Assembly: GCA_020052515.1 (NCBI GenBank)
Contig: JAGVOW010000102.1
Span: 1 to 35,664 of the forward strand
Length of the DNA stretch: 35,664 nucleotides
Reading direction: 5' to 3'
Source of the DNA: Brevinematales bacterium
GTDB lineage: Bacteria; Spirochaetota; Brevinematia; Brevinematales; JAOACQ01
Shown one piece after another: positions 315 through 21,900 of this stretch; the stretch's first letter is position 1, and each line of letters starts with the position of its first letter. The notes beneath the pieces are model-generated. The model searched no databases. It was not told the origin of the DNA and saw only the letters and a list, made by a program, of their open reading frames with translations. The position numbers and the translations under genes were made by a program.

Positions 315-1823
315 TTATTCAAAATTAAAATTAATATCTACCATTTCATCGTTAACAATATTGTTGATAACTTTATTTAATCTTTCTTTTAAATATTCAG
401 CTGTCTTATCAAGTTCATAAATACCTGCAATTTCATTATATTTGTTATCAAAATTTACAAAATTCTCAATATTGCACTGACTTGTATTATATTCAATACC
501 TGGATGGTGATATAAATTTGCTATATCTTTTTGTTTTTCAGAAGGGAATTCTGGAAATGGAATATAGTCCCAGTATTTTTGAGCTAAACTACCTCCGTTA
601 CCACCAACAGCAAATAGATCAATTAAACCTTTTGATCGTAAAAAGTCTAAACAACATTTTATAAAAATAGATAATGTTAAATTATTATTTTTTTGTTGAA
701 TAGTTATACCATGTATATTAGTAATTGTTTTTATTTCCTCATTAATAATTACAATCGAACGACCTTTTTCAAAACCTTCTGCTCCAAATATTAAATCTCC
801 CCTTTTCAAGGTTTTCAATTGCTTCGCATTACCTAAATATTCAATAGTATCTACCGTTCCATATTTAGATAAGAAATTAGGAAGCATTAAAGTATAAAAC
901 CTTGGATGTTTTTCTGTAACATATAAACTAACCCCTATATTTGAAATCTGTAGGTTTTGACCTCTCGAAAGTGAAAATCCAAAGTCAAATATTGTCCTGT
1001 AACCATTTTTATAATTTTTTATCAGAAAATTTATTTCTTTAAATTCTTTTCTATATAAATTAGTATCTAACCGTTCTATTGTCATTATTTCATTTATTGA
1101 AGGATAATTAAAGTTTAATTCACCTTCTTTTTGATTTGTATTCAGCTCATTTTCAATACTTTTTATTATAGCTTGATGACGATCCTTAATTAAATTCTCC
1201 TTAATTATAATAGCTTTCATTAGTTCTTCAATATAATTAATTACCAATTCTTTGTTTTTATTAGGAATTGGAATTTTACAATCAAGAAATAATGTTTTAG
1301 CATGACGAATAGTTGCACCTTTTGGAACCATATAATCAATTTGTTCCCTAAAAATTTGATGTTTGAGAAATGCCAACAAGTAATACTTATTTTTAGTTAT
1401 TGGTAATTTGTATAAAGCACCAGATAACATAAAATTTGGGTAGTTTTTTTCTAAGATTACAACTTCACCAATGTTACTATCTTTAGATATTATCAAATCA
1501 CCTTCTTTCAAATTGGACTTTTGGAAAGACTTGGGCATTATAGGTAAAGCACTTTCTGAAGTAATATCTAATAAATAAGAATGAGATTGCAACGCTTTTG
1601 TTCGTAGGAAATAATACGGAGATTTATCAATATAATTAATTGAACCAATTTCAATACCTAAATCCGAACGTTTTAATGGACGATCTAAAAAATCTTTTAC
1701 ATAAAGAAAACTTTTATTTGTTATGACAAGACTCATGTATTGAGATGAAGAAAGAGAATAACCTTTAGCATTAATTTCATTGATTGAAATGGAATCGGGT
1801 GTTTTCACATATTTATTTTTCAT
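315..1823 (-). CDS. hsdS: Restriction-modification DNA specificity subunit (HsdS-like)
   Basis: This 502-residue protein should recognise the DNA target for the nuclease-methylase encoded just upstream. It has two target-recognition halves of the HsdS type. The first spans roughly residues 35-215 and includes GDLIISKDSNIGEVVI; the second spans roughly 255-440 and includes KRGDLIFGAEGFEKG. Helical conserved spacers follow each half (around 200-225 and 470-495). The length fits a full two-domain S subunit (usually about 400-500). The ATG start lies 2 bases after the methylase stop, so the genes are translationally coupled. The region is very AT-rich compared with the biotin genes, which suggests acquisition by transfer. 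The recognised sequence cannot be predicted. Confidence 0.85.
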   Translation of the reverse strand: MKNKYVKTPDSISINEINAKGYSLSSSQYMSLVITNKSFLYVKDFLDRPLKRSDLGIEIGSINYIDKSPYYFLRTKALQSHSYLLDITSESALPIMPKSFQKSNLKEGDLIISKDSNIGEVVILEKNYPNFMLSGALYKLPITKNKYYLLAFLKHQIFREQIDYMVPKGATIRHAKTLFLDCKIPIPNKNKELVINYIEELMKAIIIKENLIKDRHQAIIKSIENELNTNQKEGELNFNYPSINEIMTIERLDTNLYRKEFKEINFLIKNYKNGYRTIFDFGFSLSRGQNLQISNIGVSLYVTEKHPRFYTLMLPNFLSKYGTVDTIEYLGNAKQLKTLKRGDLIFGAEGFEKGRSIVIINEEIKTITNIHGITIQQKNNNLTLSIFIKCCLDFLRSKGLIDLFAVGGNGGSLAQKYWDYIPFPEFPSEKQKDIANLYHHPGIEYNTSQCNIENFVNFDNKYNEIAGIYELDKTAEYLKERLNKVINNIVNDEMVDINFNFE

Positions 1824-1825
1824 AA

Positions 1826-3994
1826 TTAATTACCATTTATAAATATATCTTGTAAAGTCTTTTCTTGACTAACACACCAGGTTTTAAAGTTAGTTACAGT
1901 ATCAGTAAATTCCTCATCTAACATAACATTGCCTTCAGAATCAATCACTGTTTCAAAAGTATCGTAGTTAATTTTATATATTGGTTCAAAATATTTTACA
2001 CGCTTTTTAGTTTTTACTTCATATCCTACTTTTTTTATTTCCTTAAAGAAGACTTCATAATTTTGATCTTTTAATTTTTTTAATTCACTATCTTTTGGTT
2101 TATAAGCAACAATAATAGATGTGTTTACACCTGTTTCAGCAAAAACATTTGCGGGTAAGTCAAAAATGGCAACAATGCGCATTTTATCTATCAACCATTT
2201 TCTTGTTTCTTTATGAGTATCTATAGATGCAATTGAATTTGATAATACTATACCGATTCTTCCATTATCTTTTAACAGACGATACGCATTTTCAAGAAAA
2301 ACAACGCCTAAATCTATTTTTTTTCCACCGTATTTTTCCCACAATTCATAACAGGAAATCAATTCTTTTTCTTTTACATCTTTAGGTTCAAAAGCTCTAT
2401 CATCACCAAAAGGTGGGTTTGTGAGAACAACATCAAATTTCTTTAATTTTGTTTGATCTTTCCAATTATCCCAATTTCCATTCTTATGTAACTTTGGATC
2501 AATTTCTATAAGATTATCGCGATCATCGAATTTCCAAACAATTGACCCTTTATCAGGTTTAAATTTTAAAACAGCGTTACCATCGCCGTTTAGTAACATA
2601 TTTAATTGTGCTAACATGACCATTTGTTCGTCATTATCCAGTCCATATATATTTTTATCTTGTAGCGAAGAATTTGAATTAACATAGGAAACAGATAGAA
2701 AGTCTGCAATTCCAGCTGTTGGGTCAATAATTTTTTCTTCATTTCGGGGATTCACAATTTGTACCAAGAAATCTATCAATGGTATTGGGGTTAAAAATTG
2801 CCCTTTTTCTGCTTTAGAGAATTCGCTTGCAAATTTATGAAATACGATTTGATATAAATCTGTCTTATGTGATTTTACAAAGCTATAGTCTTGAAATTGC
2901 TCAACAACCTCAGCAATTATTCTGATATGATCTTCTTTTTTCCAATTGATTGTCTCAGTGTCTTCTCGTTTTAAGATAAACTGATACTCTTGAGATGCTT
3001 CGTTATAAAGTAATCTCATTCGTTCTATAAAGGATTGAACATTTTCATCGGATAAATTAACATAATTCTTTTCTTTTGATGTAACATAAAATAATAAATC
3101 CAGATGCTCTTTTTCTTTATCCGTTTTATACCAATCTAGGAATGATTTGATTCTGGCACTTCTTTTTTCGTCAAATATTTTTAATGCCACAATTTGTATT
3201 AATATTTCATAACCTCTTTGGTTTTTTAAACTAACTTTATCCATTGTTCTTAATATATTTGAAATGCCATCTGTCAGTTGTGTACTATACACACCACTAA
3301 TAATTTCTAAATCATCAATTTTTCTCTTAGTTCTATCAATCTTGGTATTATATATTTTATGAATTAATTGATCAAAAGATGGAATCTTATAATAAGCATC
3401 AGTCAAGTGCAATTGAATCTCTTTAGTTGTACTTAGTTCTTTTTTTAAATTAAAAGCTTCGTCCAAACGTAAGAAATAGTTGCCTATCTTTTTAAATAAA
3501 TAAAGACGCTCTGTATCATAGAGAATGCCTAAACAAAACTCTGTTTCACTTTCTTTAAGAGCAGGCTTGAGTTGTTGGTTCCAAATTGTTTCAATATCTT
3601 TACTGTTTTCCTTTTTAAATTCAATAACGACTATTAAATGTTTCCTTAGCCAATCTAGTGCTGATTGATCTTTATTATTATGATAATCACTATAATATTT
3701 AAACCAATCTGTTGTATCGAATATAGCCGCATCAAATTTTATCGGTGCAGATGATTTATTACCTTTTGGGAAGTGAATTTCTGTGCCAATATAATCTTTT
3801 ATATATAAACCTGAATTTACAAGTGAGTATAAAAACTGCCACTTATAATATTCTTCATTTTGTTTACCAGCTTTATTTTTAATTATAGCTGTTTTAGATA
3901 GAGTTAGATGTTCAGGTAAAAAACAATCAAATTTAGTTTGATTAGAAAATCTATCATCAAATATTAGTTTGTTTTCTGCAAAGTTATTTATCAC
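1826..3994 (-). CDS. Fused restriction endonuclease / N6-adenine DNA methylase
   Basis: This 722-residue protein appears to combine cutting and methylation. The N-terminal 180 residues resemble an HsdR_N/PD-(D/E)XK nuclease: an Asp in FDAAIFD (D88) and VVIEFKK, giving E125-x-K127. A helical HsdM-type region follows. The methylase domain has GQFLTP (398-403), motif I DPTAG (424-428) and catalytic motif IV NPPF (526-529). Motif I reads DPTAGIAD, lacking the usual GxG pattern, so its activity needs confirming. The start is GTG with GGAGG 6 bases upstream. The neighbour is an S subunit and no ATPase/helicase HsdR is present. The layout matches BcgI-like type IIB or split type IIG enzymes rather than classical type I. 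An inactive nuclease fold remains possible. Confidence 0.82.
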   Translation of the reverse strand: MINNFAENKLIFDDRFSNQTKFDCFLPEHLTLSKTAIIKNKAGKQNEEYYKWQFLYSLVNSGLYIKDYIGTEIHFPKGNKSSAPIKFDAAIFDTTDWFKYYSDYHNNKDQSALDWLRKHLIVVIEFKKENSKDIETIWNQQLKPALKESETEFCLGILYDTERLYLFKKIGNYFLRLDEAFNLKKELSTTKEIQLHLTDAYYKIPSFDQLIHKIYNTKIDRTKRKIDDLEIISGVYSTQLTDGISNILRTMDKVSLKNQRGYEILIQIVALKIFDEKRSARIKSFLDWYKTDKEKEHLDLLFYVTSKEKNYVNLSDENVQSFIERMRLLYNEASQEYQFILKREDTETINWKKEDHIRIIAEVVEQFQDYSFVKSHKTDLYQIVFHKFASEFSKAEKGQFLTPIPLIDFLVQIVNPRNEEKIIDPTAGIADFLSVSYVNSNSSLQDKNIYGLDNDEQMVMLAQLNMLLNGDGNAVLKFKPDKGSIVWKFDDRDNLIEIDPKLHKNGNWDNWKDQTKLKKFDVVLTNPPFGDDRAFEPKDVKEKELISCYELWEKYGGKKIDLGVVFLENAYRLLKDNGRIGIVLSNSIASIDTHKETRKWLIDKMRIVAIFDLPANVFAETGVNTSIIVAYKPKDSELKKLKDQNYEVFFKEIKKVGYEVKTKKRVKYFEPIYKINYDTFETVIDSEGNVMLDEEFTDTVTNFKTWCVSQEKTLQDIFINGN

Positions 3995-4475: not shown

Positions 4476-5834
4476 TTACCGGCGAGGTGTTCCTCCAAAG
4501 TATTCATCGATAGCCGCAAATGCCGTTTGAACCATAAATTCCAACTCTTTTTTCCCTACCACATAAGGAGGCATAAAGTAAAGTACATTGCCCAGAGGGC
4601 GAAGCAGCAAGCCTTTCTGCAGGGCAATACGGCAGATAGAGTAGCCGACACGGTGCTTCCAATCGAATGGTTTTTTAGTTTTTTGATCCTCGACCAGTTC
4701 TATCGCTCCGACCATGCCGAGTTGGCGGTATTCTCCGATATAAGGATGCCCTTTTGATCGTTCCTCTGTGAGTTCCTTCATACAGGCTGATTTTATCCTG
4801 TTTTTTTCTAAAACATTTTCTTCCTCAAAAATAGAAAGAGATTCGCAGGCAACCCTGCAGGACAGGGGATTGCCGCTATAGCTATGGCTGTGAAGAAAGG
4901 CTTTTTCTTCGGCATAGTCGCTGTAAAAGGCTTGATAGATTTCCTCAGCGGCTAATGTCAGGGATAACGGCATATAGCCCGCTGTAAGGCCTTTGGAAAG
5001 GCACATAATATCAGGGCTGATATTGGCCTGTTCGCAGGCAAAGAGTGTTCCTGTTCTGCCGAATCCTACCGCGATTTCATCCGCGATCAGATGAATGTGA
5101 TAAGCGGTGCAAAATTCCCTTAATTTCTTCAGATAAATCGCGGGGTAAATTTTCATTCCTGCTGCAGCCTGAATGAGCGGTTCAATAATGATGCCGCAAA
5201 CTTCTTTGTGTTGGGGAACCAGGGTTTTTTCTAATTTTTCAAAGCATTCAGCCTGGCAGGTGTTTCGTTCTTTGCCGTATGGACAGCGGAAGCAGTCCGG
5301 CCCGCTTACCTTGATCGTATTCAAAAGAAGCGGTTTATATATTTTGCTGTAAAGATCAATGTCTCCAACCGATAGCGCTCCCAGGGTTTCTCCATGGTAA
5401 GCGTCTGAAAGCGCCGCAAAACGTGTTTTCTGCGGGTTGCCGGTTTGCTGGTGGTACTGAAAGCTCATTTTGAGCGCGACTTCCACTGCCGATGAACCAT
5501 TGTCGGCAAAAAAGGCTTTGGTAAGGCCTGGGGGGGCGAGTTTAATAATCCGCTCGGCCAATTCAATCGCGGGCTCGTGGCTGAAATTGGCAAAGATCAC
5601 ATGCTCCAGTCTGGATGCCTGATCCCGCAAAGCCTTATTAATGCGGGGATTTGAGTGGCCAAAAAGATTGACCCACCAGGAGGAAACAGCGTCCAGGTAA
5701 CGCTTGCCTTCGATATCAAAAAGATACGGGCCTTTTCCCCTTTTAATCACAATCGAAGGGAAATCCTCGTAGTCTTTCATCTGGGAACATGGATGCCAGA
5801 TGTACTGGAGGTCTTTTTGCTGTAAGGAGCTCAT
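4476..5834 (-). CDS. bioA: Adenosylmethionine-8-amino-7-oxononanoate aminotransferase
   Basis: BioA converts 7-keto-8-aminopelargonate to 7,8-diaminopelargonate with S-adenosylmethionine as amino donor, the third of the four ring-forming biotin steps, using PLP in the cytoplasm. The 452 residues match a class III aminotransferase throughout: HPCSQM near residue 14, [10 protein letters not shown] (113-122), [11 protein letters not shown] with the PLP Asp at 252, and LSKGLT with the Schiff-base lysine K281. Four cysteines at 181, 184, 193 and 197 form a CxxC/CxxxC insert whose role is unclear. The ATG follows an AAGGAAAAAGG ribosome site. It starts 24 bases after the cyclase stop, so the two are probably co-transcribed. 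It is separated from the other bio genes. Confidence 0.95.
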
Positions 5835-5858
5835 AACCTTTTTCCTTTATATTCAAGC

Positions 5859-7484
5859 CTATTTATCTGCAAATTCGTAAACACCTTTCCATTCTTTGAG
5901 CTGGTTGTTTGCTTGAAGTTCTATTAGCTTTCTGCAGCGCTTTATGTAAAAATTTATCAGCGGATCAACGCATAATTCCGGGTGATAAGTATGGGAAGGC
6001 AAATTCCGCAGAAGAGTTTCGTATATCGACAAGGAACCCGAAAACATTGATTTTTCATAATACTCATAAGCTTTTTGCAAATCGCCGGCTATTTGCTTTT
6101 TGATGTCAATATACTTTTTGCCCTCGAAGTCATATACTTCATATAAGCGAATAGGGGTTGTTTTTCCCTTTGCCAGCACTTTGTCGATAAAACGGATACA
6201 ATATTGTTTTTTTAGATTCAGCAGTAATGCCTCTGATATTATAATGGAAACTCCATAATGTTTTGTCAGCGATTCAAGGCGGCTGGCCGAATTGACAATG
6301 TCGCCGATAACGGTGTAATCCATTTTTGATATGGAGCCGATATTGCCCAGGACTACTTCGCCATAGTTTATACCGATGCCGTTGTTGAGCTGCATGGGTA
6401 AGTTGTTAGCCTGGTTGAAGATATTCAATTGCCTGCGCATAGCGATCGCCGCTTCTACTGAATTGTCCGGCGAATCAAATATGGCCATAATACAGTCGCC
6501 TATCAGCTTGTCAATTTCCCCATTGTTTTCAGCGATAAACCGGTTCATTTCATCGAAGTACTTGTTCAGAATATTGACAGTTTGAAATGGATCCAGGCCT
6601 TCCGACAGAGTTGTGAAATTTCGAATATCCGAGAATAAAACCGAAATATCTTTGGCTTTAGGCTGAAAAGAAGTTGGATCTTCGCCTTTTTTTATGTGCT
6701 CAACAATAGACGTTCTGGTATAAATTTCCGTAATTTTCAAACGGTGTTCAGCTTCTTTATATTGAATTTCAAGGTCTTTTGAGAACTTTATCAGGTCCAG
6801 GTGGTTTTTCTGCTCTTCCTTTAAAAAATGAAAAAATAAGTAACCGATATAAATAAAAAAGACAAAGACGCCCACCATAGGATAATTAGAAAGGCCGTGA
6901 GAAGTAAAATTGTCGTTAATACCGGCTAAAACGCCCATAGAAAATACCGAGAAACAGATAATTTTGTCCTTTATTTTTTTCAGCATAATAAAACTGAAAA
7001 AAATGGAGAAAATGAACATGATAACCATTGAAATGGCAAAGAGGTTATAAAAAAGCCCTCCTGTGGGAAAGCAATAATGAAAACGAATTCCCATATGGAT
7101 TATGTCTATAAAACGAACCGGCAAGGAGGTAAAAATATTGAACGGAAGCGTTAAGAAAACGGCGGCGGAAAAAAACAGGTATACTTTTGGGATAATCCTG
7201 TATCTGGGTAAAAAGATGTCGTACATGCTGTAGAGCCAGAAGGGAATCGTAATAATCAGTCCCGCGTGCCGTATTTTATGAATGATAAGCGCGGTCGGAG
7301 CGTCGGCCGTAATGGAAAGAAGGAATTCAGAAAAAGAAAAGAGAAAGCCGCCAAAAGCGGCAAGCGTGAAAAAGAGGTGGACATCTACTTTCTTAAATAC
7401 CGCTAAAGTCCGGGATAAATAATAAATAGAAAAAATAAAAAGAATAGTATAAACAACCGTGAGGATAATTTGATAGGCCCCCAT
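5859..7484 (-). CDS. Seven-helix membrane adenylate cyclase (class III)
   Basis: This 541-residue protein probably makes cAMP from ATP. About seven hydrophobic segments fill residues 5-220, followed by a short coiled-coil linker (225-255). A class III catalytic domain spans about 277-440. Metal-binding aspartates are D286 (FSDIRNFT) and D330 (DKLIGD). The purine-selecting pair is K326 and D389 (MDYTVIGD), which favours ATP over GTP. The transition-state residues are N398 and R402 (VNSASR). About 100 residues follow with no clear domain. All key residues are present in one chain, so a homodimer would have two sites. It has its own promoter (7515-7542) and precedes bioA closely. The signal it senses is unknown. 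Confidence 0.9.
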   Translation of the reverse strand: MGAYQIILTVVYTILFIFSIYYLSRTLAVFKKVDVHLFFTLAAFGGFLFSFSEFLLSITADAPTALIIHKIRHAGLIITIPFWLYSMYDIFLPRYRIIPKVYLFFSAAVFLTLPFNIFTSLPVRFIDIIHMGIRFHYCFPTGGLFYNLFAISMVIMFIFSIFFSFIMLKKIKDKIICFSVFSMGVLAGINDNFTSHGLSNYPMVGVFVFFIYIGYLFFHFLKEEQKNHLDLIKFSKDLEIQYKEAEHRLKITEIYTRTSIVEHIKKGEDPTSFQPKAKDISVLFSDIRNFTTLSEGLDPFQTVNILNKYFDEMNRFIAENNGEIDKLIGDCIMAIFDSPDNSVEAAIAMRRQLNIFNQANNLPMQLNNGIGINYGEVVLGNIGSISKMDYTVIGDIVNSASRLESLTKHYGVSIIISEALLLNLKKQYCIRFIDKVLAKGKTTPIRLYEVYDFEGKKYIDIKKQIAGDLQKAYEYYEKSMFSGSLSIYETLLRNLPSHTYHPELCVDPLINFYIKRCRKLIELQANNQLKEWKGVYEFADK

Positions 7485-7514
7485 AAATCCCCCTGGAAAC
7501 CACTTCTGTTACAT

Positions 7515-7542
7515 ATTATAAAATAAAAAAGGAAGAAGTCAA
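7515..7542 (-). promoter_or_regulatory. Sigma70-type promoter for the cyclase (and bioA)
   Basis: On the minus strand there is TTGACT (7537-7542), a 16-base spacer and TATAAT (7515-7520). The cyclase ATG is about 31 bases downstream of the -10 box, with GGGGGA just before it. Confidence 0.7.
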
Positions 7543-7569
7543 TGCAGCCAAGGTTAATCAACCACGCCT

Positions 7570-8271
7570 TTAATGATTCTTCAAAACCGCTTCCATCAGA
7601 CGGATGAGGATTTGATGGTCTTCAAGGGGAAGAAAATGGTCCGTTAAGAGAATGGCCTGGCCGAAATCTTTGTCATCAAAATCAAAGATAAGTTTTTCGC
7701 CTGTTGAAAGAGCATGAACGGAAATATTGAAAACTTCGGAGAGTTTAATCATTTTATCAAGCGAAGGCACTGATTTTTTTTCATAGTGTGCTATTTGACC
7801 TTGAGTGACATTTAATATACCTGCCATCTCTTTCTGAGAAATATTGTTTTTTTCTCTTAACCATGTGAAGTTTAATTGAAAAGTGCTGTTAAGCTGGATT
7901 TTGATGTCCTGTTTAATATCTTTAGAATTAAAACCCTGAGGAAAAAATGAACGTGCTGTTGCGGTTATTCGATTTCTTTCATCTGGCTGACAGATTGATT
8001 CACATTTTTTAGCGAGATTAAGCAATTTTAAGTTTTTAGGATAACCAGTTTGATCCCATAAAATTAAAAAATCCAAAGAAATTTGAAAATATTGTGAAAT
8101 ATTTATCAAGACATTTAAAGATGGTACAATGTTCCTTGCTTCATAATTTCTGGCTGTTTTAAAATTTATACCTGAATCCGAGGTCAATTTATTTAAGCTG
8201 ACACCTGCATAAGCTCGTAATTTCTTAATATTCAGGCCAATTGAAAAAATATTTTCGTTATGTATTGACAA
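7570..8271 (-). CDS. Transcriptional regulator with two XRE-type HTH domains
   Basis: This 233-residue protein carries two helix-turn-helix domains of the Cro/CI (HTH_3) type, at about residues 12-70 and 133-190. The first includes SLNKLTSDSGINFKTARNYE; the second includes ISQKEMAGILNVTQGQIAHYE. The linker and C-terminus show no ligand domain. Tandem HTH domains suggest binding to long or paired operator sites. The start is TTG with GGGGGAG only 2 bases upstream, which is tight; no better in-frame start is seen. It lies between the biotin operon and the cyclase-bioA pair. A role in controlling either, or itself, is only inferred from position. Confidence 0.8.
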   Translation of the reverse strand: MSIHNENIFSIGLNIKKLRAYAGVSLNKLTSDSGINFKTARNYEARNIVPSLNVLINISQYFQISLDFLILWDQTGYPKNLKLLNLAKKCESICQPDERNRITATARSFFPQGFNSKDIKQDIKIQLNSTFQLNFTWLREKNNISQKEMAGILNVTQGQIAHYEKKSVPSLDKMIKLSEVFNISVHALSTGEKLIFDFDDKDFGQAILLTDHFLPLEDHQILIRLMEAVLKNH

Positions 8272-8300
8272 AACTCCCCCGTTATATTATAATAATGAAT

Positions 8301-8310
8301 ATACATGTAT
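8301..8310. promoter_or_regulatory. Palindrome upstream of the HTH regulator, possible operator
   Basis: ATACATGTAT is a perfect 10-bp palindrome about 30 bases upstream of the regulator start. It sits just upstream of a TATAAT box (8286-8291, minus strand). A site in this position would suit autoregulation by the HTH protein. No second copy was found elsewhere in the window. Confidence 0.3.
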
Positions 8311-8427
8311 CATATTAATAATATACTCTGATTATTAGACTCGTACATTTCTAAAAAAACGCATGCGCCCTCGCAATTTAAAAACCCTGGGGAGGGAAAT
8401 GAAAAAAGCGAAGCGCGCACTAAAATC

Positions 8428-8469
8428 GGGATGTCCCGGATTGTGTTTACGCGATCCGGGATACATCCC
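8428..8469 (-). terminator. Hairpin downstream of the biotin operon
   Basis: GGGATGTCCCGGAT (8428-8441) pairs with ATCCGGGATACATCCC (8454-8469) apart from a 2-base bulge, around a 12-base loop. It lies 130 bases past the bioC stop. There is no strong T-run, so termination is uncertain; it may be a palindromic repeat. Confidence 0.4.
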
Positions 8470-8537
8470 ATATTCTAGCTTATTGCCTGGAAAAACTCAA
8501 AAAAGTACCGGGGTTTCTATCTCAAATTCGCGTATTT

Positions 8538-8586
8538 ACCACCGAGCGCCAAGAACGCTCCGTTCCTTCTTGGTGTCCTTCGTGGT
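8538..8586. repeat. Palindromic repeat just after bioC
   Basis: ACCACCGAGCGCCAAGAA (8538-8555) pairs imperfectly with TTCTTGGTGTCCTTCGTGGT (8567-8586). The bioC stop is 12 bases away. The words CTTGGTG and CTTCGTGGT look like a dispersed palindromic (REP-like) element rather than a gene part. Confidence 0.5.
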
Positions 8587-8597
8587 GAATCAAGTAT

Positions 8598-9383
8598 TCA
8601 TGTTTTTAAAACGACATAAACGCAATGATAACTCGCTTTTATTTTTCCCTCTTCCTTAAATTCTTGATCGTATATTTTCATAGCTTCCTTCAAGAGTAAA
8701 ATATTCTGTGAGGCAACATTATTCCCAGCGCCGATTTTCTTGATCGCGCGCAGAAAATCCAATGCGGAGCCATAATATTCTGTTTCGATGCTTTCCTCAA
8801 CGCGGATTCGCGATTCCGGGAACAAACTTTTAAAGTCTTCCTGAAGGGGAAAAGATTCTATCGCCAGAAGCGGTTTTTTCAGTCCAAGCCTATCCGCGGC
8901 TTTTTTGTAGGAAAATCTTAGCTCTGGAAAGGTTTGCCTTCCAAAAACAGAGAAGGCTAAAACTCCTCCAGTGCTTAATGCGGAATATAGTTTTGTCAGG
9001 GTTTGAGAAAGGTTGTTCAGCCACTGAAAAGCGGCATTGGAAACAATAAGGCCATATTTTTTTTTAAGAGGAATTTCCTCAATATCGCCGCAAACGAGCT
9101 GAAGATTATCCAGCTTGAATTTATTCCGGCAAACTTCGAGCATTTTGGGTGCGAGGTCAACCGCCGTTATAGAAGAAGCAGGGTAATTTTTGATCAGGTC
9201 CAGAAGCATAAAACCGGTGCCGCATCCAATGTCCAGAATATTTTTTTCGTTAAGAGAGAGATTTTCTTCTGGTTTTGTAAGAGCCGAAAGTCTCTCGGCC
9301 ATTTTTTTCTGTATTTTCGCGTAGCGGTCATAATACAAAGCCCCGTGGTTGAAATGATCCCTGACTAAATTCTTATTGATCAT
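8598..9383 (-). CDS. bioC: Malonyl-ACP O-methyltransferase
   Basis: BioC methylates the free carboxyl of malonyl-ACP so that fatty acid synthesis can build a pimeloyl chain. The 261 residues match the family's usual length (about 250). The SAM-binding motif I is NILDIGCGTGFMLLDL near residues 48-63, followed by an acidic residue in TAVDLAPKML and motif II/III regions (LQLVCGDIEEIPL and VSNAAFQWLN). The ATG overlaps the end of the upstream esterase gene by 11 bases, so the two are translationally coupled. It is the last gene of the biotin operon. Its placement beside a BioH-type esterase shows that this organism uses the BioC-BioH route to pimelate. Confidence 0.93.
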   Translation of the reverse strand: MINKNLVRDHFNHGALYYDRYAKIQKKMAERLSALTKPEENLSLNEKNILDIGCGTGFMLLDLIKNYPASSITAVDLAPKMLEVCRNKFKLDNLQLVCGDIEEIPLKKKYGLIVSNAAFQWLNNLSQTLTKLYSALSTGGVLAFSVFGRQTFPELRFSYKKAADRLGLKKPLLAIESFPLQEDFKSLFPESRIRVEESIETEYYGSALDFLRAIKKIGAGNNVASQNILLLKEAMKIYDQEFKEEGKIKASYHCVYVVLKT

Positions 9384-10101
9384 AACTTTTTTCCAGATTC
9401 CAGAATTGTTTGAAAGAGGCGAGAAAAGGTTCTACCTGGGTCAAAAAAGGCATGTGGCCTGCACCGTTGAATTTTATTATATGAGAATGTCCTCGCCAGT
9501 GCTTGCGGATCCAGTCAGCAGCACCGATAGAGCAGATTTTATCTTCTTCGCCATGCATCAAAAGAACAGGCATCTCTAATTCGCCTATTCGGCTTCGAAG
9601 GTCTGTTTGAATCAGATAATCCAGTCCAATGGCCAGAACTTTTGGGTCCACCGTCCTGTGGATGGGGGAGGGTTTTTCTTCACTGGAAAACAAAAGGGAA
9701 TCAAATTCAGAAAGGACTTTTTCAGGCTGAGTAATCAAATTGCTTTTCATTCTTTCCGAAATTCTGGAGGGCCAGCCTGAAATATAGCCTTCTGCTTTTT
9801 TCTGGATAAAACAAGAGGTGCCGGAAACAAGCGTCAGGTTCTGGATTTTATCGGGAAAAGCAAGTGCCGTCTCCAGCGCGGCAAGGGCGCCCATGGAATG
9901 TCCCAAAATGCAGCATGGCCCTTTTGTTTTCCCTACGGCTTCAGAGACGAGCTCAGGAATATCAGATGCTTTTTGAACCTTTTCGCATTGAATAAAAGTG
10001 AGGTCAAAGAAAGCGCCTAATTTTTCGCTCATATTTTCCCATATTCTCTGGTCCATGCTCCAGCCGGGAATTAAAATCAATTCAGTTTTTTCTTTCATCA
10101 A
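9373..10101 (-). CDS. bioH: Pimeloyl-ACP methyl ester carboxylesterase (BioH-like)
   Basis: This alpha/beta hydrolase should remove the methyl ester from pimeloyl-ACP methyl ester, ending the BioC-started chain. In 242 residues it has LIPGW near the N-terminus (the oxyanion region), a nucleophile elbow GHSMG near residue 88, an acid in MHGEEDKI near 197-203, and a catalytic His in GAGHMPF near 223-229. The ribosome site is GAAGGATTTG before the ATG, 30 bases after the bioF stop; its end overlaps bioC. Several unrelated hydrolases (BioG, BioK, BioJ and others) can fill this step. The PGW motif, length and position favour BioH, but the exact family is inferred. Confidence 0.85.
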   Translation of the reverse strand: MMKEKTELILIPGWSMDQRIWENMSEKLGAFFDLTFIQCEKVQKASDIPELVSEAVGKTKGPCCILGHSMGALAALETALAFPDKIQNLTLVSGTSCFIQKKAEGYISGWPSRISERMKSNLITQPEKVLSEFDSLLFSSEEKPSPIHRTVDPKVLAIGLDYLIQTDLRSRIGELEMPVLLMHGEEDKICSIGAADWIRKHWRGHSHIIKFNGAGHMPFLTQVEPFLASFKQFWNLEKSYDQ

Positions 10102-10131
10102 ATCCTTCTAACTATTAGCCTCATCCCCCGG

Positions 10132-11301
10132 CTACAAAAACATTGTCTTTTTTATTTTCTCAAAAGCAAATTCCAAATCTTCCACACTGTGTGTCGCCAT
10201 GAGAGAAATCCTCAGCCGGCTCTTTCCTTCTTTTACTGTCGGCGGCCGGATAGCCGGAATAAAAACCCCTTCCTCAAAAAGCATCCGGCTGTACAGAGCG
10301 GCTTTTGAGGATTCTCCAACCATGACTGGAATAATGGGAGTTTTGCTCTCTTGCACAGAAAACCCCGCTTGAAAAAGCTTTGACGAAAACCATGCCGCGT
10401 TTTCCAGCAGTCTTTTTCTCGGCAAGCTATCCTCCCGGATAATTTCCAGTGCTTTCAGAGAAACCGCGATGGTTTGTGGCGCGAGCGCCGTAGAATAAAC
10501 AAAGCTTCTTGCACGGTGCTTCAGAAAATCGATCAGCACTTCCGGCCCGGCTACATAGCCGCCTTCGCTTGCGAAGGCTTTGCTCAAAGTGCCCATCTGG
10601 ACATCCACTTTATCTTTCAGGCCAAAATATTCCGCGGTGCCCGAACCATTTTCTCCAAGGATTCCCGCGGCATGGGCATCGTCCACCATCGAAATTAAAC
10701 CATAATGTTTCGCGATAGAAGTAATTTCCGGAAGAGGGGCAATGTCGCCGTCCATACTGAAAACCCCATCGGTCACAATCAGGCCGGGCTTGTTTTTATT
10801 TTTCTCGACTTTTTTGAGCAAGTCAGATGTATCGCAATGTTTATACACAATGAGTTCCGCACCGGAAAGCCTGATCCCATCGATGATGCTGGCGTGATTG
10901 AGTTTGTCGCAGTAAACGGCCCAGCCCGGCCCAGCGAGGGCGGTAATAGTTCCAAGATTCGCCATATAACCCGTGTTAAAAACAAGGCATGCGGGCGTCT
11001 TTTTGAATAAAGCCAATTGTTTTTCCAATTCCAGGTGCAGAATGGATGTCCCGGTGGTCAAACGGGATCCGCCCGCGCCGGTGCCATAATGTTCAATAGC
11101 TTCCTTAGCGGCTATTTTTAAGCGCTCATCATCGCATAATCCTAGGTAATTGTTAGAAGACAGAAGCAAAATTCTTTTTCCTTCTACGATTGAAAAAGGC
11201 GCCTGAGGAGCGCTGAAGGCTTTGAACTGCCGATATAGGCCTTTCGTTTTTATCTCCTCTAATTGGCCTTCCATAAACCGCAGAGGGTTTTGAGTTAACA
11301 T
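10132..11301 (-). CDS. bioF: 8-amino-7-oxononanoate synthase
   Basis: BioF condenses pimeloyl-ACP (or -CoA) with L-alanine, releasing CO2, to form 7-keto-8-aminopelargonate; it is a PLP alpha-oxoamine synthase. The 389 residues are full length. Visible features are SSNNYLGL near 48-55, GAGGSRLTTG (75-84), the PLP-stacking His H136 (LNHASIIDG), the ring-nitrogen Asp in VDDAH (207) and the Schiff-base lysine K241 in GTLSKAFASEGG. The ATG overlaps the end of bioD by 7 bases. It sits third in the biotin operon. Confidence 0.95.
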   Translation of the reverse strand: MLTQNPLRFMEGQLEEIKTKGLYRQFKAFSAPQAPFSIVEGKRILLLSSNNYLGLCDDERLKIAAKEAIEHYGTGAGGSRLTTGTSILHLELEKQLALFKKTPACLVFNTGYMANLGTITALAGPGWAVYCDKLNHASIIDGIRLSGAELIVYKHCDTSDLLKKVEKNKNKPGLIVTDGVFSMDGDIAPLPEITSIAKHYGLISMVDDAHAAGILGENGSGTAEYFGLKDKVDVQMGTLSKAFASEGGYVAGPEVLIDFLKHRARSFVYSTALAPQTIAVSLKALEIIREDSLPRKRLLENAAWFSSKLFQAGFSVQESKTPIIPVMVGESSKAALYSRMLFEEGVFIPAIRPPTVKEGKSRLRISLMATHSVEDLEFAFEKIKKTMFL

Positions 11302-11999
11302 AAATCTTCCAGCCAGTTTTTTACAAATAACTCCATAAAAGCCTTTTTATTTTTCCTGATAGAAAAATTCTCTCCCATCCAGGGAATGGTTCCCAAAATC
11401 GGCAAATTGGTTAATTTTTCAATACTATTCAAATTATCCTTTTCTATATCAGTTCCGGTAAAGCCATTCAAAATGATTCCCTTCACAGCAATGCCAAACT
11501 GGCGGGCAAACTCAACTGTGAGGAGGGTGTGATTCAAAGTGCCCAATCCGGCGCGCGCTGTAATGATACAGGGTAGGCCAGAATCCCGAATAAAATCGGC
11601 GATCAGGTAGCCTTCATCGTTGAGCGGGACGGCTATGCCGCCGCATCCTTCCGCGAGAATAAATTCGTATTTTTCCTGAAGTTTTTGAAAAGCTTGAAGA
11701 AGGCTGTTTTTTTTTATAGGCCTATTTTCCAATCGAGCGGCAAAATGAGGAGATGCAGCGCGCTCAAAGATAAAGGGGGTTATGTTTTCGTTCTTTTCAT
11801 CAAGGCCCGCGATTGCTTTGACCAGCTCAGTGTCCTCTGGAAAAAGCTCTCCGTTTATTCTTTCCGCTCCGGTAAGCGCCGGCTTAAAATAGCAGGCGTT
11901 TATCCCTCTAGAGCGCAGTAAAGTTAAAATGCCCGCTGACACAATCGTTTTACCGACGCCGGTGTCTGTCCCGGTAATAAACAAGCCTTTTCCGGTCAT
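11295..11999 (-). CDS. bioD: ATP-dependent dethiobiotin synthetase
   Basis: BioD closes the ureido ring of dethiobiotin from 7,8-diaminopelargonate, CO2 and ATP. The 234 residues match the family length. The P-loop is GTDTGVGKT at about residues 10-18, followed by a conserved CYFKPALTG region and EGCGGIAVPL near 116-125. The ATG overlaps the bioB stop by 4 bases (ATGA), and the end overlaps bioF, so translation is coupled through bioB-bioD-bioF. Confidence 0.95.
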   Translation of the reverse strand: MTGKGLFITGTDTGVGKTIVSAGILTLLRSRGINACYFKPALTGAERINGELFPEDTELVKAIAGLDEKNENITPFIFERAASPHFAARLENRPIKKNSLLQAFQKLQEKYEFILAEGCGGIAVPLNDEGYLIADFIRDSGLPCIITARAGLGTLNHTLLTVEFARQFGIAVKGIILNGFTGTDIEKDNLNSIEKLTNLPILGTIPWMGENFSIRKNKKAFMELFVKNWLEDLC

Positions 12000-12961
12000 T
12001 GTACTTCCAATCCCTGTTCTGAAATCAAGCGCTTGTCTTCCGCGATGGTGTTGCCCGCCGTCGTGAGAAAATTTCCCACAAGCGCGGCATTGATCCCGGC
12101 GCGGTAGCCTTTTGACTGTTCAGAACCCAGTGCCTTTCTACCGCCGGCATAGCGGATAAAAGCTGTCGGGTGGATAAAGCGAAAAACAGCTATAGTGCGG
12201 AAAACCTCTTCCGGGCTAAGCGAAGGCTGTTTTTCCAGAGGCGTTCCGGGGATGGGAGTTAAAATATTAATAGGGATGGATTTTATTCCAAGGTGCTTGA
12301 GTTCAAAAGCCATTTCCAGGCGGTCCCGCATGGTTTCCCCCATACCGATAATGCCGCCTGAGCAGACCGGAAGGCCAGCTTTCTGGATATTCTGAATGCT
12401 TTGGATCCGGTCCTCATAAGAATGAGTTGTGCAGATTTTGGGGTAGAAATTCCTGCTGGTCTCAATGTTGTGATGGTACATCGTGATCCCTTTATTCTTC
12501 AAAAGGACTGATTGTTCAAAAGAAAGTTTCCCCAGCGAAGCGCATAAATCAAGCTTTGTTTTTTTTCTCAATTCCTGGTAAATAGAAATAATTTGCTCAA
12601 AATCTTCAGGGCTCAATGTGTTGCCGCTGGTGATCAAAGAAAATCTTTTGACACCGGCAGACTCGTTTTCCAGGGCAAGTTTCAGCACTTCTTTTCTATT
12701 GACCAGCGGGTACTCCTTTACTCCTGTTTGATAATGCGCTGATTGTGCGCAGTATCTGCAGTTTTCGGAGCAGGCCCCCGATTTTGCGTTCATAATCGAA
12801 CAAAGGTCAGCCTTGCTGCCATTCAACTGTTCTCGAATTTGGTTGGCGGCTGAGTATAATGCTTCCGCGTCTTTCGTTTGAGAAAGCATTTCGGCTTCTT
12901 CGAAAGAAATAGAAAATCCTGACAGCACTTTCTTTTCCATAGCCAAGATAAAGGAATCCAT
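11996..12961 (-). CDS. bioB: Biotin synthase
   Basis: BioB is the radical SAM enzyme that inserts sulfur into dethiobiotin. It has the [4Fe-4S] motif CSENCRYC (CxxxCxxC) and the [2Fe-2S] ligands: the cysteines in LDLCASLG and VCSGGIIGMGE, and the Arg in FIRYAGGR. I place the start at the ATG at 12961, with GGAG 5 bases upstream, giving 321 residues, typical for BioB. A longer frame to 13003 would run into the palindromic repeat and adds 14 residues with no family match. It is the first gene of the biotin operon. Confidence 0.95.
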   Translation of the reverse strand: MDSFILAMEKKVLSGFSISFEEAEMLSQTKDAEALYSAANQIREQLNGSKADLCSIMNAKSGACSENCRYCAQSAHYQTGVKEYPLVNRKEVLKLALENESAGVKRFSLITSGNTLSPEDFEQIISIYQELRKKTKLDLCASLGKLSFEQSVLLKNKGITMYHHNIETSRNFYPKICTTHSYEDRIQSIQNIQKAGLPVCSGGIIGMGETMRDRLEMAFELKHLGIKSIPINILTPIPGTPLEKQPSLSPEEVFRTIAVFRFIHPTAFIRYAGGRKALGSEQSKGYRAGINAALVGNFLTTAGNTIAEDKRLISEQGLEVQ

Positions 12962-12977
12962 AAGAGCTCCAAAAAAA

Positions 12978-13019
12978 CGCCTCACCCACAACCCCCTCTC
13001 CAAACTTTGGAGAAGGGGG
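12978..13019. repeat. GC-rich palindromic repeat before bioB
   Basis: CGCCTCACCC (12978-12987) is followed by an imperfect palindrome, CCCCCTCTCCAAA then TTTGGAGAAGGGGG (12992-13019). It resembles the element at 4391-4459, but the outer complementary arm is lost. It lies in the bioB mRNA leader, just upstream of the ribosome site. Confidence 0.6.
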
Positions 13020-19904: not shown

Positions 19905-21695
19905 TTATTCCAGATCTTTTTTCACCACCTCAAAGATCAGAGTTTTATCGGCAATCTGCTTCAAGGTCTTGTTTTGAGCGCCGCGGGGAATGATCCAGCA
20001 GACGGCCCTTTCGCCTTTGAAGTACTTCATCGTTGAAACAAGCGCCTTGCGTATGGAATAAGGCTTTGTAGAAACAAGATTGATCACGATCATCAGCCAG
20101 TTGACAGAATAATGGCTGATATTGGAACCCTGCTTTAATAGCTGAGTAACAGAAGGTCCGGATGTTTTTTTCTTCGCGTGGCCGAAGTCGGGGGCATCCG
20201 CTTTACCAATGGGGTCCAACCCTGTTGCTTTACAGAATTCGGAAGAAGCCCACTTCGCGACTGCTTCCGAAGAGGAAATTTTGGAGTAATCGCAATCATA
20301 AACGTCCATGATTAATTCAAAAGCGGATGAAAACCCCTCTTCTACCGGGAGTTTAAAGTCTTTTGAAAACACTTTTGAACAATCAACCATTTTTGGTTTA
20401 TAGGATTCATTGACAGGAGATAATTTTTTGCCGCCTTTCCCAAGATCGGCTTTATAGATCAAACTGTTCTGGCGGATCTGGCGGATATCCGTAAAAGAAC
20501 CCCGCAGAATATAATGGCACATGGCGGAACTGGCCCCATAATAGCCGATCGAATAGGCCGCGGCGTCATCCACCGGCAGGCTAGCGCATGTAAAAACATT
20601 GGCGCATCCGGTCGTGCCATATTGACGGTAATTAATAGCGCTGGTTTCAATATACTGAACCAGCGTGTCGCCTTCTTTGAAATCTTTATTCGAAACCATA
20701 GGCGTTCCAAACGCTACCATCTTGATGGCTTCGCAGGTTTCCTTGCTCCATTTTGCCACTTTGGTAACTGAAGGGATGGTTTTATTTTTCAGTTCAATAT
20801 CCATTACGATTTCTTCCCCGTATTTATCCTGCTCTAAGCGCCTCTGAAACTCAGGATACGCAACAGCGGAAATTTGCGGGGAATACCAATTGCACTTTAT
20901 TCCGGCTTCTTTAAATGCCTTTTTAGAGTTTTGAGAGGCTTTCGGGAAAACTTTGCGGCCTTTGGAACCGGCGGTTAAGCTGAAAGGACCGCCCATATAG
21001 CTGATATTGGTAAATTGAACCACCCGGACATCGTCAAAAGAACGTTCTATCTGGCGCCAGCTTGCCGGACATTCCGAAGGCTGTAAAATAAGCGAGCCGG
21101 TCTGATGGATAGTGATTCCGCCATCGACTAACGCGTCATAGACGCTCTGGTAAAAATTGGTGTTAAAGAGGCTTTTTGCAGGGCCGATCGGGTCAGTGGA
21201 ATCGATCATCACCACATCGCACTTTCCCTTCATAGACTTGATCACTTCCGCGCCGTCTCCGACAATCAAATGAAAGCGCTTGTCATCCCAGATTCCCTCA
21301 GAGATCGAGGGCATGTGCTTCCTGCAAGAGTCGATTACCATTCTATCTATTTCTACCATCGTGACGGATTTAATCGATTTGTGCCTGAGCACCTCACGGG
21401 CTACTCCGCCATCCCCTCCGCCGATAATGAGAACATTTTTCGGCGGCTGAAGAAGGGAAAACATCGGCCAATGCGTGATCCACTCGTGGTAAATGCCTTC
21501 ATCCTCTTCCGTCAGCTGGACAATGCCGTCCAGGACAAGAACGCGTCCCAGGCGCTCCGTTTCGAGAATCATCAATTTCTGGAAGCCGGTGTCTATTTCC
21601 GGTACCAGCACTTTCGATACCTTGAAACCATAGGTAATATCTGTGTAAAGGCCTTCATAAAACCAGAGCCCGTCTTTTTGCTTGACTAAAGCCAT
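19905..21695 (-). CDS. speE: Spermidine synthase fused to two SpeD-like domains
   Basis: Residue numbers here count from the ATG at 21695. The first ~280 residues are a spermidine synthase (aminopropyltransferase): VLIIGGGDGG binds the nucleotide, with MVEID, the catalytic Asp region VVMIDSTDP, and HQTGS. Two S-adenosylmethionine-decarboxylase-like repeats follow. The first (about 295-400) has an ETSAI segment and NVFTC; the second (about 458-575) has GSNISH. Key pyruvoyl-enzyme residues are split: the first repeat keeps the Cys and lacks the His, the second keeps the His and lacks the Cys. The fusion could supply decarboxylated SAM to its own synthase, or the SpeD parts may have another role. 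The start at 21695 is chosen because GGAGG lies 7 bases upstream. Confidence 0.85.
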   Translation of the reverse strand: MALVKQKDGLWFYEGLYTDITYGFKVSKVLVPEIDTGFQKLMILETERLGRVLVLDGIVQLTEEDEGIYHEWITHWPMFSLLQPPKNVLIIGGGDGGVAREVLRHKSIKSVTMVEIDRMVIDSCRKHMPSISEGIWDDKRFHLIVGDGAEVIKSMKGKCDVVMIDSTDPIGPAKSLFNTNFYQSVYDALVDGGITIHQTGSLILQPSECPASWRQIERSFDDVRVVQFTNISYMGGPFSLTAGSKGRKVFPKASQNSKKAFKEAGIKCNWYSPQISAVAYPEFQRRLEQDKYGEEIVMDIELKNKTIPSVTKVAKWSKETCEAIKMVAFGTPMVSNKDFKEGDTLVQYIETSAINYRQYGTTGCANVFTCASLPVDDAAAYSIGYYGASSAMCHYILRGSFTDIRQIRQNSLIYKADLGKGGKKLSPVNESYKPKMVDCSKVFSKDFKLPVEEGFSSAFELIMDVYDCDYSKISSSEAVAKWASSEFCKATGLDPIGKADAPDFGHAKKKTSGPSVTQLLKQGSNISHYSVNWLMIVINLVSTKPYSIRKALVSTMKYFKGERAVCWIIPRGAQNKTLKQIADKTLIFEVVKKDLE

Positions 21696-21696
21696 T

Positions 21697-21900
21697 TTAA
21701 TCCTCCGATAATAATCGTTCATATTCTTTTTTCTTAAGTTTTTGCTCTTTTGCGTAGTTCGAAGTTTCATGTAAAAGTTCTTTTTTAAAGAAATCAGCCA
21801 TAACTCTTTTCAATTTCAAAAGTTCATTATCTGGAATGTTTTTAGAATATATTTTCAAGAGCTCCTGTTGAACATTTGAGAGGTGAACAGCAACAGCCAT
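21697..21900 (-). CDS. Small antitoxin-like protein
   Basis: This is a 67-residue charged helical protein. Its pattern (QQELLKIYSKNIPDNELLK followed by a VMADFFKKEL helix) resembles small antitoxins encoded next to PIN-domain toxins, though I cannot name the family. I use the second ATG (21900), which has GGAG at 7 bases; the first (21906) touches GGAG. Its stop codon abuts the speE start. No intact toxin follows; a VapC remnant lies beyond speE. Confidence 0.5.
   Translation of the reverse strand: MAVAVHLSNVQQELLKIYSKNIPDNELLKLKRVMADFFKKELLHETSNYAKEQKLKKKEYERLLSED

Follow-up and report, generated by a model that had tools for sequence, protein, structure and literature searches.

The window (the whole 35,664-nt stretch of a Brevinematales contig analyzed here) carries on its minus strand a gene for a spermidine synthase (SpeE) domain followed by two repeats, R1 and R2, that resemble the S-adenosylmethionine (AdoMet) decarboxylase SpeD. 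The features are listed below. Residue numbers are those of the whole protein (P0001); P0002 denotes its C-terminal 304 amino acids, in which the numbers equal those of P0001 minus 292. The corresponding positions in human AdoMet decarboxylase (AdoMetDC) are numbered S68, C82, S229, and H243.

19905..21695, minus strand: whole gene of the SpeE-R1-R2 fusion, 596 amino acids (open reading frame, start with Shine-Dalgarno sequence, full-length homologs)
21702..21706, minus strand: Shine-Dalgarno sequence GGAGG, preceding ATG 21695
20847..21674, minus strand: SpeE domain, residues 8 to 283 (NF002010 above cut-off, motifs)
20430..20819, minus strand: R1, first predicted SpeD-fold repeat, residues 293 to 422 (PF02675 stretch, structural model, hhalign match to SpeDC-type proteins)
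20640..20648, minus strand: E350-T351-S352, predicted self-cleavage site with S352 as the predicted pyruvoyl serine (structural alignment)
20586..20594, minus strand: F368-T369-C370, with C370 at the position of Thermotoga maritima C83 and human C82 (alignment)
19908..20342, minus strand: R2, second predicted SpeD-fold repeat, residues 452 to 596 (best PF02675 stretch; Z of 10.3 with T. maritima SpeD)
20154..20198, minus strand: R2 loop DAPDFGHAKKKTSGP, residues 500 to 514, preceding S515 (family alignment)
20151..20153, minus strand: S515, at the position of T. maritima S55 and human S229 (spacing to H528)
20112..20129, minus strand: G523-S-N-I-S-H528, with H528 at the position of T. maritima H68 and human H243 and G523 at that of the pyruvoyl serine

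The reading frame is open from an in-frame upstream ATG at 21770. On sequence grounds, the start is the ATG at 21695 rather than at 21770, because GGAGG lies just upstream of it and the homologous proteins begin there (10 full-length homologs; 61 to 67% identity). The SpeE domain scored 292.5 bits against the curated spermidine synthase model NF002010 (cut-off, 260) and 246.8 against TIGR00417, slightly below the cut-off of 249.55, and its usual motifs (GGGDGG, VEID, GDGAE, and DSTDPIGPA) are intact. A first-pass annotation had placed a spermidine synthase fused to two SpeD-like segments at this locus, and both the intact SpeE and the two PF02675 stretches described below agree with it. In the full-length AF2 model, the SpeE part was poor and the alignment shallow. 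Family matching of the genes around the fusion gave no link to polyamines. Elsewhere in the window are biotin genes (bioA, bioF, and bioB; 4476 to 13003, minus strand) with unnamed open reading frames interspersed, a stand-alone heme-NO-binding protein (HNOB, PF07700; 17194 to 17736) adjoining a ComEC-like gene, and methyltransferase and specificity-like subunits (315 to 3994) that the MADS models MAD2 and MAD5 match weakly, far below cut-offs.

The C-terminal 304 amino acids belong to the AdoMet_dc superfamily, matching PF02675 in two stretches (30.7 bits; gathering score, 25; E value, 4e-7), and the same family was matched in 11 of 11 tested homologs. R1 and R2 also align with each other (hhalign probability, 98.6; E value, 1e-15). 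Both likenesses had been proposed from the bare sequence. A contig scan revealed ten full-length relatives of the fusion in Aminicenantes/Acidobacteria assemblies, one of these ten being labelled Chrysiogenales (51 to 58% identity over the tandem). When 142 genomes from the class Aminicenantia were searched with a profile, 24 matched strongly; of the 392 genomes searched in the window's phylum, that of the window alone has the fusion. The family alignment and the residue counts given below are based on these 24 genomes plus that of the window. Because the SpeE-R1-R2 arrangement is common to 25 genomes and its key residues are invariant, chance can be excluded as its origin.

For T. maritima SpeD, we aligned what we take to be its sequence, in which S63, H68, and C83 agree with the published numbering. 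These are the catalytic residues of that enzyme, S63 being the pyruvoyl residue (PMC10407285). Throughout the 25 fusions, R1 carries E350-T351-S352 and F368-T369-C370 and no His at the H68 position, as first described, and the S352-C370 spacing is indeed shorter than that of S63-C83 in T. maritima SpeD (18 versus 20). R2 has S515 and H528 in all 25, with the same spacing as S55-H68 (13); Gly occupies the S63 position, and the C83 column is unconstrained. The Ser-x-x-x-His originally read in R2 (S524 to H528) is one residue off the canonical spacing: in ungapped register from the His, S524 falls at the H64 position and G523 at that of S63. R2 therefore has no pyruvoyl serine, contrary to the earlier suggestion, and its meaningful pair is S515 and H528. 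Nor is Ser at the cysteine position of R2 a family feature, as this column varies (S/A/V/I/L). Neither R1 (no His) nor R2 (no pyruvoyl Ser and no Cys) has the full residue set of a class 1b AdoMetDC (SpeD), and HTWPE is found in neither.

The two halves of eukaryotic AdoMetDC each contribute to catalysis, the first providing the pyruvoyl serine and Cys and the second the His; the bacterial single-domain enzyme, which holds the union of these residues, dimerizes (PMC1282579). The first-pass annotation had suggested predicting the structure of both repeats. An AF2 model of the tandem (pLDDT, 90.9; pTM, 0.91) has them folded as a pair, as in the eukaryotic enzyme, and its best VIA-align match was the human AdoMetDC proenzyme (1jl0; Z, 17.6; 3.4 Å over 233 residues), with model residues 1 to 302 on human residues 11 to 329, i.e., covering both halves. 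Alignments to the cleaved chains start at model residue 61, against human residue 69 and potato residue 74; in the model, S352 (P0002 S60) would thus lie at the position of human S68 and potato S73. Searching the sequences of solved structures with a profile turned up no match to the tandem, and fold comparison alone yielded its structural relatives.

With fold and residue placement predicted in this way, we infer self-cleavage, catalysis, the substrate, and any channeling as follows. Face-to-face packing of R1 and R2 would give one alpha-beta-beta-alpha sandwich in which only one active site works. Self-cleavage of R1 between T351 and S352 would create a pyruvoyl group next to C370, with S515 and H528 contributed by R2 from the other side of the sheet interface; R2's own pyruvoyl position, the mirror site, would be dead. 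A small substrate would be decarboxylated at the pyruvoyl site and the fused SpeE would use the product, making the whole protein a two-step spermidine enzyme within one chain. We put the probability that the tandem forms a single composite pyruvoyl site, whatever its substrate, at about 0.7. The composite site raised in the first-pass annotation fits the complementary retention of residues in R1 and R2 in 25 of 25 fusions. Conservation is also lopsided, as a single live site predicts: the R2 loop before S515 has 13 invariant columns out of 15 and its R1 equivalent 1 out of 12, and C370 is invariant whereas its R2 counterpart is the variable column noted above.

The tandem might instead be a structural or regulatory pseudodomain without catalysis, comparable to the trypanosome prozyme or to the N-terminal domain that human spermine synthase derived from SpeD. 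S63, H68, and C83 have counterparts together in neither half, aminopropyltransferases that carry degenerate SpeD domains are documented (PMC12803844), and the model weakly matches the N-terminal domain of human spermine synthase (Z, 5.6). We nevertheless consider this improbable: the residues of exactly one complete site are invariant in all 25 fusions while those of the other drift, and the clade described below that has no separate SpeD would offer a regulator nothing to regulate and leave SpeE without its donor.

The fusion resembles several known systems and differs from each. It shares with the eukaryotic class 2 AdoMetDC (human, potato, and Trypanosoma brucei) two SpeD-fold halves in one chain, with the sandwich as modeled, the predicted pyruvoyl Ser and the Cys in the first half, and Ser and His in the second. 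In contrast to class 2, the AdoMet-contacting Glu residues are absent (T351 and N532 by alignment), the cleavage motif is E-T-S rather than E-S-S, SpeE is in the chain, and the repeats match SpeDC-type proteins; moreover, the eukaryotic family PF01536 had no match at E values of ≤1 in the fusion or the tested homologs. The echo of the eukaryotic enzyme heard in the first-pass annotation thus extends to the predicted fold and the paired halves but not to direct kinship. Because R1 and R2 are nearest to SpeDC-type proteins and PF01536 is not matched, the likeness in fold and division of labor is probably convergence.

Like the bacterial SpeD1-SpeD2 fusions (Desulfotignum, Omnitrophica, and Victivallis; PMC10407285), the tandem consists of SpeD homologs linked to speE. 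In those proteins, the N-terminal half is reported to be a working AdoMetDC and speE is separate, and the C-terminal half is degraded in that of Victivallis (PMC10407285). Here neither half is complete and SpeE is N-terminal in the same chain, which sets the fusion apart from that group. SpeDC (PMC10407285), the closest profile for both repeats, has the VQ..ETS motif in common with the tandem but is a single domain that keeps H68, the diagnostic Tyr, and an acidic loop; by analogy with the SpeD fold, SpeDC would work as homodimers carrying two sites each. A SpeD-fold domain is also joined to an aminopropyltransferase in the AdoMetDC fusions of "Candidatus Pelagibacter" and Krumholzibacteria (PMC11107197, PMC12803844) and in human spermine synthase. 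There it is one N-terminal domain, working except in spermine synthase; here there are two C-terminal ones, each incomplete. The trypanosome AdoMetDC prozyme likewise lacks catalytic residues (PMC5201418) but is a separate dead partner, whereas the residues missing here are complementary within one chain. Published fusions thus already include SpeD-SpeDC beside speE, N-terminal AdoMetDC on aminopropyltransferases, and the degenerate SpeD of human spermine synthase (PMC10407285, PMC11107197, PMC12803844). The literature searched, which did not include Green et al. 2011, describes no SpeE that bears two complementary SpeD domains at its C terminus.

Judged by profile comparison, both repeats are closer to the SpeDC ornithine decarboxylase branch than to true SpeD. 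R1 matched SpeDC-type proteins with an hhalign probability of 98.7 versus 85 for SpeD (HMM medians, 32.6 versus 10.8 bits), and R2 with 96.4 versus 5 (26.0 versus 4.8 bits). An Asp-to-Asn change near the Cys is common to R1 and R2. SpeDC is a pyruvoyl ornithine decarboxylase with four diagnostic residues, Gln, Thr, Phe, and Tyr (PMC10407285). Stand-alone SpeD paralogs in phylum mates of the window's genome carry VQLIETS..SGHFAN....Y.D.FSC, whose residues we take for these four diagnostics, with positions read off our own alignment. Such paralogs adjoin true SpeD and SpeE (L018) or share a chain with a SET-like domain (L014, L015, L021, and L024). Measured against the diagnostics as thus aligned, the fusion keeps Gln and Thr, has Tyr/Phe for Phe, and has lost Tyr, and so is not a canonical SpeDC.

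In the phylum mates, the SET domain (HSCEPN...GEEITIDY, by eye) is apparent ahead of the SpeDC-type domain, and these genes adjoin true SpeD. Adjacent SpeE, SpeDC-type, and SpeD genes (L017 to L020) form a separate-gene counterpart of the fusion, and a SpeDC-type protein of this sort shares 61% identity with a Leptospira interrogans protein, a weak pointer to Spirochaetota as the phylum.

The fusion gene has a G+C content of 46.8% compared with 37.1% for the window and 50 to 62% for the Aminicenantia loci. Given this deviation, the fit of the contig to its own genome, and the Aminicenantia being the main holders, the window's genome probably acquired the fusion horizontally from Aminicenantia. 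A wrongly binned foreign contig is unlikely, as tetranucleotide correlations were 0.94 to 0.98 to the genome's other contigs and far lower to Aminicenantia. We also rejected a decayed pseudogene (dN/dS of 0.02 to 0.14 for SpeE and 0.13 to 0.23 for the tandem in all pairs tried). No relative of the tandem was found in the viral contigs, plasmids, and phages searched. The Pfam search of genomes retrieved the tandem in only 4 of the 25, even at E values of ≤10; the fusion would thus caution that absence calls for SpeD or ornithine decarboxylase in genomes can err.

As the substrate of the composite site, AdoMet appears more likely than ornithine, at somewhat less than even odds; it would be converted to decarboxylated AdoMet (dcAdoMet), the aminopropyl donor for the fused SpeE. 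SpeE needs dcAdoMet, and a separate SpeD accompanies the fusion in nine Aminicenantia and in the window's genome. In the other 15 of the 24 fusion-bearing Aminicenantia, Pfam detected no other SpeD, and a class 1a query search found none in any of the 24. Fourteen of the 15 form one clade (support, 100/99); the fifteenth may reflect an assembly gap. A SpeD hidden in this clade was looked for and not found: Pfam and the class 1a query gave none in the 14 genomes, and when one of the 14 was searched locally with HMMs (2.14 Mb, near-whole genome, all frames; SpeD, SpeDC, R1, and R2 models plus a class 1a protein), the fusion alone came up, with spiked controls recovered. Since these 14 genomes have no other SpeD and their SpeE is under strong purifying selection (pairwise dN/dS within the clade, 0.02 to 0.08; tandem, 0.14 to 0.17), AdoMet is favored. 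The clade tips our judgment because dcAdoMet is an unlikely nutrient and putrescine is importable; it represents a single evolutionary event, though, and retention of SpeD elsewhere points the other way.

Counting against AdoMet are the separate SpeD in ten genomes and the loss of AdoMet-binding residues. The position of human F223, presumably the adenine-stacking Phe, falls on K508-K510 of the fusion. The two glutamates of AdoMetDC that contact the base and ribose of AdoMet (PMC1282579) correspond in the alignment to T351 and N532. A SpeDC-like scaffold can nonetheless act on AdoMet, since the SpeD of Sinorhizobium phage phiN3, reported to have AdoMetDC activity (PMC9992855), scored 51 bits on the SpeDC model built here and 23 on that of SpeD and lacks HTWPE. 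Should the tandem make dcAdoMet, the cell would depend on putrescine import or on an unseen route to putrescine, because a putrescine-forming decarboxylase was found in only 2 of the 25 genomes (G394, PvlArgDC; G400, AAT-fold), stand-alone SpeD proteins being left out of this count.

With L-ornithine as the substrate of the same site, the tandem would supply putrescine to the fused SpeE and the separate SpeD would supply dcAdoMet. The first-pass annotation had raised another amino acid decarboxylation, a possibility that gains support from the proximity of both repeats to the SpeDC branch. Three of the four presumed SpeDC diagnostics have counterparts at the composite site (T351, the Gln that follows S515, and the Tyr/Phe that follows H528), and the loss of AdoMet-binding residues points the same way. 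In the window's genome, which has a separate SpeD of class 1a, SpeE occurs in the fusion only, and PF17810 (SpeA), PF01276 (AAT-fold), and PF01862 (PvlArgDC) are lacking, the sole PF02784 match being LysA; with none of the four searched ODC/ADC families present, ornithine decarboxylation would fill a gap. However, the 14 genomes would then hold a strongly selected SpeE without a source of dcAdoMet, the fourth diagnostic, Tyr, is lost, and the acidic SpeDC loop FGEDERVAG is replaced by the basic FGHAKKKTAG. We therefore rank ornithine somewhat below AdoMet. Far less probable still is a different amino acid such as carboxyspermidine, with SpeE transferring aminocarboxypropyl from AdoMet and the tandem decarboxylating the product. 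Such a route would need neither SpeD nor an adenine pocket, in keeping with the SpeD-less clade and the lost AdoMet-binding residues, and an ornithine decarboxylase-like pocket would already accept cationic alpha-amino acids. Against it, the SpeE domain is ordinary and keeps the Asp of GGGD, and SpeE enzymes are known to use dcAdoMet rather than AdoMet.

With AdoMet as the preferred substrate, we tentatively suggest, as a history with well under even chances, that a SpeDC-type SpeD was duplicated, that the copies decayed complementarily into a composite pyruvoyl site making dcAdoMet beside SpeE, and that one clade then discarded true SpeD. The origin of eukaryotic AdoMetDC, two fused SpeD units of which one has no cofactor, has been modeled on bacterial fusions with one complete half (PMC10407285). 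Neither half of the fusion described here is complete, and the two complement each other as those of eukaryotes do, yet they are nearest to SpeDC-type proteins; the fusion would therefore be an independent run, and a direct test, of that path. It would also add an arrangement for making putrescine or dcAdoMet within a spermidine synthase.

Comparison of members with and without a separate SpeD identified 14 clade-specific columns, which do not clearly point to a change of substrate; of these, I349V, A365L, and T/I517V are located on the catalytic strands. By eye, the class 1a (Escherichia coli-type) SpeD gene of the window's genome (L001:1357-2214) lies between sigma-factor-like and HemW-like genes. 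Likewise by eye, the separate class 1b SpeD of Aminicenantia (L043, L046, L087, L090, and L092) in most of these loci adjoins an Lrp-like regulator and a glutamine-synthetase-like gene, and the fusion in the SpeD-less clade (L005 to L008) lies between urocanate-hydratase-like and DnaK-like genes.
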